Of a DNA stretch of 64,000 bases, positions 42,536 through 44,840 are shown piece by piece. Position 1 is the stretch's first letter, and each line of letters opens with the position of its first letter. Origin of the DNA: Phyllobacterium myrsinacearum (GTDB taxonomy: Bacteria; Pseudomonadota; Alphaproteobacteria; Rhizobiales; Rhizobiaceae); contig NZ_JACGXN010000008.1 in the NCBI RefSeq assembly GCF_014138285.1, positions 1 through 64,000 on the forward strand, read 5' to 3'. The notes under the pieces were generated by a model. It did no database searches. It saw only the letters and a program-made list of their open reading frames with translations, and was not told the DNA's origin. Both the position numbers and the translations under genes were made by a program.

Positions 42536-42626
42536 TTATCTTCCGGCTTCACGGCTTTGTGTTGATCGTCATTGGGGGGAAATGGCATATTTTCACGGCA
42601 GCACAAGCAGAGATGAAAGAGCAGTC

Positions 42627-43607
42627 ATGGCCGCAATTCACCGCAAGCCCGCCTGGGCGATAGCTGAGACCTTGGCAACGCCAGAAACGGCGTTTCTCAA
42701 CCGGCGTGCAATCCTTCAGGCATGGGGTCTTGGTGTGCTGGCGACCGCTGCTCTGACAGGATTGCCAAAAGTGGCGCGCGCTGAAGGGGATCGCAAACCT
42801 GCGGGCAGTCCGGCCCTCTATCCGGCCAAACGCAACGACGCCTACAAGCTCGATCGCAGCCTGACCCCGGAAGAGATCAACGCGAAATACAACAATTTCT
42901 ATGAATTCGGATCGGACAAGGGCATTTACGCGGAGGCGCAGAGCCTGATCACCAATCCATGGGCGATAGACGTCGACGGCATGGTGGAAAAGCCGTTCAC
43001 GATAGAATTCGCTGATCTTGAAGCAAAAATCCCGCTCGAAGAACGTCTCTACCGCCACCGCTGCGTCGAGGCATGGTCGATGACCATTCCATGGACCGGC
43101 TTTTCGCTGTCCAAGCTGGTTGAGCTGGCAAAACCGCTCGGCTCAGCCAAGTATATCCGGTTTGAGACTTTCAATGATCCGTCGATGGCGAGCGGCCAGA
43201 ACGGCTTTCTCTATACGTGGCCTTACGTGGAAGGCGTCACCATGGCGGAAGCCGCCAGTGACCTCGCCTTCATGGTCACCGGCGCCTATGGCAAGCCGCT
43301 GCTCAACCAGTTCGGTGCTCCGATCCGCCTTGCCCTGCCGTGGAAGTACGGTTTCAAGTCGGTCAAGTCGATCCGCAGGATCACCTTCACCGACAAACGG
43401 CCAGTCAGTTTCTGGGAAGAACTGGCATCGAACGAGTATGGCTTCTGGGCCAACGTCAATCCGGAGGTTGCCCATCCGCGCTGGAGCCAGGCGCAGGAGC
43501 GCGTCCTGCATACGGGCGAAACCGTGCCGACACTGCTGTTCAATGGCTATGGCGATCAGGTCGCTTCCCTCTACAAGGGGCTCGAAAACGAAACGCTCTA
43601 TCGCTGA
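42627..43607 (+). CDS. msrP: Protein-methionine-sulfoxide reductase catalytic subunit MsrP (YedY)
   Basis: This 326-residue periplasmic molybdopterin enzyme reduces methionine sulfoxide in envelope proteins. The Tat signal holds the twin arginines Arg26-Arg27 (AFLNRRAILQAWGLGVLATA). The molybdenum-ligating Cys146 is in YRHRCVEAWSMTIPWTGF. ATG 42627 is preferred over 42582 because it places the Tat motif at the usual distance and starts like Brucella MsrP (KPAWAI..LATPE). No msrQ membrane partner gene lies next to it. It ends near a hairpin that also serves the convergent small RNA candidate. Confidence 0.93.
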   Translation: MAAIHRKPAWAIAETLATPETAFLNRRAILQAWGLGVLATAALTGLPKVARAEGDRKPAGSPALYPAKRNDAYKLDRSLTPEEINAKYNNFYEFGSDKGIYAEAQSLITNPWAIDVDGMVEKPFTIEFADLEAKIPLEERLYRHRCVEAWSMTIPWTGFSLSKLVELAKPLGSAKYIRFETFNDPSMASGQNGFLYTWPYVEGVTMAEAASDLAFMVTGAYGKPLLNQFGAPIRLALPWKYGFKSVKSIRRITFTDKRPVSFWEELASNEYGFWANVNPEVAHPRWSQAQERVLHTGETVPTLLFNGYGDQVASLYKGLENETLYR

Positions 43608-43626: not shown

Positions 43627-43747
43627 AAAAGAAAAGAGGCCGGACAATTGCCCGGCCTTAAGTTTTGAAGGATGCCATTTCTGGCAAAACCTCCAGAGGG
43701 GAACACTAGCGGATGCGCAATGGGAGGAGGAGACGCATCGGCTAGTG
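43627..43747 (-). ncRNA. Candidate CCUCCUCCC-loop small RNA (cuckoo RNA-like)
   Basis: On the minus strand, TTGCAA (43776-43781) and CATATC (43758-43753), 17 bp apart, predict a start near 43746. Immediately there, ACTAGCCGATGCG and CGCATCCGCTAGT form a 13-bp stem with one mismatch (43746-43705). Its 16-base loop shows CCTCCTCCC, an anti-Shine-Dalgarno motif. A TGCCA-GAAA-TGGCA hairpin with a GNRA-type loop follows (43686-43673). AGGCCGG/CCGGCCT (43658-43637) then leads into CTTTTCTTTTC, a terminator. The RNA would be about 120 nt. Known alphaproteobacterial cuckoo (CcsR-type) RNAs display the same loop motif. No ORF fits this interval. Confidence 0.65.
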
Positions 43748-43943
43748 ATGTGGATATGGGCCCTTTGACCGTTTCTTGCAATCCCCCAATTGTGCATTGC
43801 ACCCATGCACCGGATGCATACCGACAATTTATCGGCATTTTTGAAATGAGGGCGGGTCTTTACAGGGCGGACAGGCAACATCATGCTCCATTCCGACTGA
43901 CTTTCGAAAGAATATTTTTCCGCAAAAATACAGAAACAACCGA

Positions 43944-44840
43944 TCAATAGGACCAGGTGCGCGCCTTCGAGAAAAGGAAATCTCGAAACACGTGCAATTT
44001 GGCTGCGTTCTTGATTCCCTCGGGGTAACAGAAGAACGTGTCGAAGGATGGCATCTCCATCTCCGGCAACAGGCGCACGAGGGTCGAATCCTTCTCGACC
44101 ATATAGTCGGGAAGCACCCCGAGGCCGACACCTTTCTGGATGGCGCGCTTGATCGACAGAAGATTGTTGATCTGCAGTACAGCGGGCCGCAGATTGCCAT
44201 CGGACCGGCCGATCACTTCAAGCCAGTTGAGGTTGGTCAGGTAAGAAGGCGCCGGTTCACCAAAGCTGACAATGCGATGGGAGTCGATCTCGTCGATGCT
44301 TTCGATCTTGCCATACTTGGCAATGTAGCCCGGCGATGCATAGACGTGCATATGCACCGTGAACAGCCGCCGCTGGATCAGGTCAGGCTGTTGCGGCTGG
44401 CGCAGGCGGATTGCGCAATCCGCATGGCGCATCGTCAGATCCAGCTCTTCATTATCGAGCAGAAGCTGCAACTGCACTTCCGGATAGAGCTCGATGAATT
44501 CCTGTACCCGCTCGATCAGCCAGCCGGAACCGAGACCCACGGTCGTGGTGACACGCAGCTTGCCAGACGGACGGTCCTTGCTCTCGGTAAGGCGCGAGCG
44601 GACATTTTCCAGCTTCATCAACACTTCGTGGGCGGTGCGGTACAGCACCTCGCCCTGCTCGGTCAGGATAAGGCCACGCGCATGTCGGTGAAACAGCGGA
44701 ACGCCGACATCCTGCTCCAATGCGCTGACCTGACGGGAGATGGCCGATTGCGACAGATGCAGCGTCTCGGCGGCATGGGTGAATGACCCAGCCTCCGCCG
44801 CAGCATGAAATATTCGCAATTTGTCCCAGTCAAGCGACAT
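43944..44840 (-). CDS. lsrB: LysR regulator LsrB/VtlR
   Basis: This 298-residue LysR protein begins MSLDWDKLRIFHAAAEAGSF, which I recognise from LsrB of Sinorhizobium/Agrobacterium and VtlR of Brucella. The helix-turn-helix is HAAETLHLSQSAISRQVSAL; residues 90-298 are the effector domain. In those bacteria it controls redox defence, envelope and virulence or symbiosis genes and small RNAs. Cysteines at 142 and 271 are candidates for the reported thiol sensing of LsrB. trxB lies 60 bp upstream on the same strand, the conserved neighbour. A candidate small RNA lies downstream on the same strand. Confidence 0.92.
   Translation of the reverse strand: MSLDWDKLRIFHAAAEAGSFTHAAETLHLSQSAISRQVSALEQDVGVPLFHRHARGLILTEQGEVLYRTAHEVLMKLENVRSRLTESKDRPSGKLRVTTTVGLGSGWLIERVQEFIELYPEVQLQLLLDNEELDLTMRHADCAIRLRQPQQPDLIQRRLFTVHMHVYASPGYIAKYGKIESIDEIDSHRIVSFGEPAPSYLTNLNWLEVIGRSDGNLRPAVLQINNLLSIKRAIQKGVGLGVLPDYMVEKDSTLVRLLPEMEMPSFDTFFCYPEGIKNAAKLHVFRDFLFSKARTWSY

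Follow-up and report, generated by a model that had tools for sequence, protein, structure and literature searches.

A predicted lsrB-linked small RNA of the AbcR family in Phyllobacterium

The alpha-r15 family of small RNAs comprises AbcR1 and AbcR2, and more than one abcR copy per genome has been stated for Rhizobiaceae and Brucellaceae (PMC3712013). Its members carry two anti-Shine-Dalgarno seeds, CUCCUCCC (aSD1) and UUCCCCUC (aSD2), which act independently, and the layout of these seeds serves as a family criterion (PMC8844928). In S. meliloti, the abcR pair lies between SMc01226 and lsrB (PMC3712013); the abcR1 promoter has a box at -61 to -49 by which LsrB binds and activates it, and abcR2 depends on RpoH1 (PMC8844928). 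In A. tumefaciens, vtlR lies upstream of abcR1 and abcR2, and VtlR binds the abcR1 promoter (PMC7486931), while in B. abortus VtlR controls abcR2 (PMC5461406). The linkage of lsrB to abcR, the activation by LsrB and both seeds are already published for Sinorhizobium and Agrobacterium. Other RNAs share part of this design: those of the alpha-r14 family display CCUCCUCCC in three hairpins (PMC10746234), and the CcsR-like RNAs accompany DUF1127 genes, as at the CIN1 locus (PMC10253847).

We analysed a 64-kb stretch of Phyllobacterium DNA (the window), in which a minus-strand sRNA gene occupies the gap between msrP and lsrB. The reading that we favour, with a probability of about 0.93, is that positions 43632-43746 encode an lsrB-linked AbcR sRNA, equivalent to AbcR1 in promoter and place, which would be activated by LsrB and would repress ABC-transporter mRNAs via their ribosome-binding sites. 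Family membership, the conserved structure and seeds, the box and the gene order were all found by computation. The features of the locus are as follows.

42582..43607, plus strand: msrP, the convergent neighbour (NCBIfam NF003767, 403.9 bits, cut-off 207)
43632..43746, minus strand: AbcR (alpha-r15, RF02345) sRNA gene, 115 nt according to the Rfam model match, ends predicted
43637..43658, minus strand: intrinsic terminator hairpin followed by CTTTTCTTTT (terminator scan; both-sided changes at three pairs)
43666..43695, minus strand: stem-loop 2 with a GAAA-capped tip (fold; 12 residues in place of a single one in the Rfam model)
43696..43703, minus strand: aSD2 seed UUCCCCUC, in the unpaired stretch that joins stem-loops 1 and 2; all 70 copies have it
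43705..43746, minus strand: stem-loop 1, 13 pairs and a 14-nt loop (fold; both-sided changes at 4 of 13 pairs in 7 distinct rows)
43722..43729, minus strand: aSD1 seed CUCCUCCC, an unpaired part of loop 1; all 70 copies have it
43753..43781, minus strand: core promoter TTGCAA-N17-CATATC (TTGCAA 43781-43776, 17 nt, CATATC 43758-43753)
43796..43808, minus strand: predicted LsrB/VtlR box GCATGGGTGCAAT, a perfect GCAT-N3-TG-N3-T, spanning -62 to -50 relative to the 5′ end of the model
43944..44840, minus strand: lsrB/vtlR, LysR-type regulator and presumed activator (Pfam HTH_1 and LysR_substrate; trxB beside it)

The original prediction had described a complete minus-strand sRNA gene here, and its parts (promoter, 5′ hairpin, GAAA-capped hairpin and terminator) are all present. 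It had also suggested that the RNA could be a new branch of the cuckoo (CcsR-type) family and proposed an Rfam search and a comparison of stem 1 in relatives as checks. The Rfam search pointed elsewhere: RF02345 (ar15) matched with 58.7 bits against a cut-off of 40 (E 2.2e-9; model positions 1-112 of 112), and it was the only family above its cut-off within the window. The exposed anti-Shine-Dalgarno loop, which had suggested a cuckoo RNA, corresponds to the published aSD1, and the second seed (43703-43696) as well as the LsrB box (43808-43796) had been overlooked. The first loop holds aSD1 and an unpaired aSD2 separates stem-loops 1 and 2, which is the AbcR layout. Judged from its sequence, it is a new member of the known AbcR family, not a new class.

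The closest described counterpart is AbcR1 of S. meliloti and A. tumefaciens. Both belong to RF02345, carry the same two seeds, have an LsrB/VtlR box about 60 nt upstream and lie downstream of lsrB/vtlR with trxB at its other side. At this locus, however, there is a single copy instead of the abcR1-abcR2 tandem, the far neighbour is msrP instead of an ArsR-type regulator, and the tip of stem-loop 2 is longer than in the Rfam consensus. AbcR1 and AbcR2 of B. abortus, as described, have the motifs M1 CUCCCA and M2 GUUCCC in the same places and likewise occur as two copies on separate replicons or contigs; in that species, though, the VtlR-controlled copy is the one named AbcR2. Our naming of lsrB draws on its LysR domains, the trxB neighbour, which matches a published gene order (PMC7486931), and the linked AbcR RNA, and is to that extent provisional; among the matches listed for its product, no NCBIfam model scored above its own cut-off. 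Over the 3.1 kb around the gene, identity amounts to 89.6% with P. calauticae and 89.0% with P. myrsinacearum. A similarity search of the msrP-lsrB gap against plasmids returned no match, and a literature search for Phyllobacterium together with AbcR found no paper on this locus.

The RNA folds far more stably than shuffled versions of it: the 117 nt folded gave -50 kcal/mol against a shuffle mean of -28.27 (z = -6.65), and none of 200 shuffles was as stable. Stem 1 consists of 6 and 7 pairs flanking a 1x1 mismatch, and its loop exposes CCUCCUCCC. The 13-bp stem proposed earlier therefore stood, while the loop, said to have 16 bases, has 14 nt, as a closing U-G pair had been omitted. The GAAA-capped hairpin and the terminator were recovered by the fold and the terminator scan, and similar GGAAA-capped tips occur in the other Phyllobacterium rows. 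Both seeds stay accessible, aSD1 being wholly unpaired in 47 of 47 distinct folds and aSD2 in 46 of 47. The longer string CCTCCTCCC occurs once in the window (43722-43730), which is by itself not significant, with 0.52 occurrences expected and at least one in 46 of 100 shuffles.

Conservation was studied in 70 copies, namely the window copy and 69 relatives above cut-off, which represent 47 distinct RNAs; many rows are close relatives, so the conservation counts are not independent events. A MAFFT alignment took in 42 of the 70 copies and misplaced the variable stem 1, which resulted in a consensus fold with only 7 stem-1 pairs. Stem 1 was therefore counted on 15 of the 70 rows, picked as nearly gap-free, which collapse to 7 distinct rows. 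Both-sided changes, for which the original prediction had proposed to look, were seen there in 4 of 13 pairs; the count is lowered because two of the seven rows (L037 and L041) have a shifted 5′ side. In the 7 distinct rows 92.3% of the cells are paired, compared with at most 47.3% when the stem is slid, and three of five conservation measures exceeded all 500 shuffles. Two measures did not rise above the shuffles: the number of pairs changed on both sides, which 101 of 500 shuffles reached, and that of further pair types, which 404 of 500 reached. For the terminator hairpin, both-sided changes were observed at three pairs among 42 relatives.

The promoter TTGCAA-N17-CATATC was found exactly as proposed, on the minus strand at 43781-43753, and a scan with the sigma-70 consensus recognised no canonical promoter at this element. 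Among the 70 copies, 63 have CATAT and 69 have ATAT no more than 25 nt ahead of the RNA. Upstream of it, the LsrB/VtlR box sits at -62 to -50 from a predicted 5′ end, close to the AbcR1-type position of -61 to -49. In 65 of the 70 copies it starts between -60 and -63, and a box at -64 to -59 arose in only 12 of 14,000 shuffled upstream regions. The pattern as such is no rarity: the window contains 16 matches, against an expectation of 12.45.

We sampled relatives as 80 lsrB loci, the best 80 of at least 564 confirmed. An ar15 RNA above cut-off was found downstream of lsrB on the same strand at 69 of these 80 (16 + 16 + 20 + 17), and two more loci (L069 and L085) carry lsrB-linked ar15 copies below the Rfam cut-off. 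Together with the box upstream, this bears out the link to LsrB that had been suspected. At 9 of the 80 no convincing AbcR was found within 3 kb of lsrB, the best weak match reaching 17.9 bits; seven of these are labelled Brucella, one Rhizobiales and one Mesorhizobium. The seven Brucella loci and the Rhizobiales locus are L023-L026, L030, L032, L034 and L035, and AbcR is present at L028, L031 and L041, which are labelled Brucella too. LsrB is 97-100% identical to its 14 closest loci among the best 80 of at least 564, 13 of them labelled Phyllobacterium, and 84-85% identical to L033, L037 and L040, which bear the same genus label. Across 151 same-family genomes, an ar15 match was obtained at E 0.001 in 114 and above cut-off in 99, and the strict filters may lose some. 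In the fetched Phyllobacterium loci, in part of the Brucellaceae and in most of the fetched Mesorhizobium loci (best 80 of at least 564), box, seeds and linkage stay associated, and the well-studied LsrB-AbcR circuit, its parts precisely placed, is extended to Phyllobacterium. Phyllobacterium sp. OV277 has an ORF of 349 aa (L008:3946-4995) on the opposite strand between lsrB and the AbcR RNA; it contains an HPFQDGNGR motif that resembles the Fic motif.

A search of the genome itself revealed two ar15 RNAs, the lsrB-linked copy and one on contig 1. More than one copy is thus present, although this is a loose feature, with one match only in many genomes of the family. The contig-1 copy (L002:1501-1597; G000:C1:1212049-1212145) has a shorter stem-loop 2, with 7 pairs and a 4-nt loop. 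No LsrB box was found in the 160 nt upstream of it; instead CTTGAA stands at -36 and TATAT at -14. These elements resemble the RpoH1-type promoter of S. meliloti abcR2, with a spacing 2 nt shorter than the consensus (PMC8844928).

Which of the two copies deserves which name depends on their promoters. The lsrB-linked RNA could conceivably be of the AbcR2 type, stress-induced and driven by RpoH1, with the contig-1 copy as AbcR1; naming does vary among genera, and VtlR controls abcR2 in B. abortus (PMC5461406). We consider this improbable, because the LsrB box is found at the lsrB-linked copy, whereas the contig-1 copy has none and bears imperfect RpoH1-type elements. The lsrB-linked copy is therefore best called AbcR1-type. 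More speculatively, the pair may have split in Phyllobacterium, with the lsrB-linked copy keeping the box and its sister lying elsewhere without it and with a heat-shock-sigma-like promoter, so that nutrient and stress control would be divided between them. In the lsrB copy, stem-loop 2 would have been enlarged into a GAAA-capped hairpin, which might provide a further protein contact or serve a separate function.

Membership in the cuckoo or CcsR type, as a new one-loop branch resembling alpha-r14, was rejected on family scores, loop count and neighbouring genes, and we hold it to be very improbable. The loop CCUCCUCCC is indeed the same as in alpha-r14/NfeR1 and cuckoo RNAs, and the ar14 model aligned over its full length (30.2 bits, E 0.00088 in a 601-base search). 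Yet this score is well under the ar14 cut-off of 58.8, whereas that for ar15 is above its own; there is one such loop, not the three hairpins described for alpha-r14 (PMC10746234), and the neighbours are lsrB and msrP, with no DUF1127 gene of the kind that accompanies CcsR-like RNAs (PMC10253847). The RNA also possesses the AbcR aSD2 seed and the lsrB linkage, and five ar14 loci above cut-off are situated elsewhere in the genome. Slightly less credible still is the idea that the hairpins are merely 3′ structure or a terminator of lsrB or msrP without a separate RNA. Their position between convergent genes, after lsrB on the same strand, would suit it, but a conserved promoter element and a box whose spacing to the start of the RNA is fixed would not, nor would conserved unpaired seeds; moreover, the RNA is kept in Phyllobacterium sp. 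OV277 in spite of the ORF that separates it from lsrB.

For the lsrB-linked AbcR RNA we propose the following course of events, by analogy with its relatives. LsrB would bind the box that starts 62 nt upstream and activate a weak housekeeping promoter, from which an RNA of about 115 nt, ending at its own terminator, would be made. Its two seeds could then pair with the ribosome-binding sites of mRNAs, mainly those that code for substrate-binding proteins of ABC transporters, and block their translation, probably with Hfq, which may also stabilise the RNA. As in the related bacteria, this AbcR copy probably turns down nutrient-uptake genes; its expression, the binding and activation by LsrB and the repression itself are likewise expected from those species.

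In this genome, 66 substrate-binding-protein starts paired better than 89 control starts with aSD1 (p = 0.0015) and with aSD2 (p = 2.6e-5), where the p values are uncorrected for several tests. For the first set, 24 of 24, 12 of 12 and 30 of 41 matches were used, one of the 12 scoring below the Pfam cut-off; the controls comprised 30 of 71, 30 of 52 and 30 of 101, less one locus that was dropped, and include lsrB itself. Starts were taken as the most upstream in-frame ATG, or else GTG or TTG, and some are surely wrong. With the 16S rRNA tail, too, the substrate-binding-protein genes paired better than the controls (p = 0.004). When the seeds were scrambled, a difference of that seed's size recurred in 14 of 100 trials for aSD1 and in none of 100 for aSD2. 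The aSD1 preference is for these reasons confounded by general Shine-Dalgarno strength, and it is the aSD2 result that carries the weight; the better pairing is specific for aSD2 and weak for aSD1. Counts of exact seed complements are small and mixed. GGGAAC was found at 4 of 66 starts and 0 of 89 controls (p 0.03), while TGGGAG was not enriched (4 of 66 vs 3 of 89, p 0.34). The full complements of aSD1 (2 of 66 vs 0 of 89, p 0.18) and aSD2 (1 of 66 vs 1 of 89, p 0.67) were not enriched either, and runs of at least 6 with aSD1 (p 0.07) or at least 8 with aSD2 (p 0.12) did not differ significantly. The best single case, L170, has 12 consecutive pairs with the aSD1 fragment; it and L154 are among the best aSD1 and aSD2 pairings.

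Two further observations concern other loci. The five ar14 RNAs of the genome hold 3, 3, 2, 2 and 1 exact copies of CCUCCUCCC, and one with three copies (L003:1501-1621; G000:C9:93746-93866; 114.6 bits) starts 10 nt downstream of a DUF1127 gene of 52 aa, as has been described for CcsR-like (CIN1) loci. One contig (L047), which bears the label Bacillus subtilis SK6B4, carries an lsrB that is 80% identical, together with an ar15 RNA like those of the Pseudochrobactrum loci; this assembly is probably mislabelled or contaminated.
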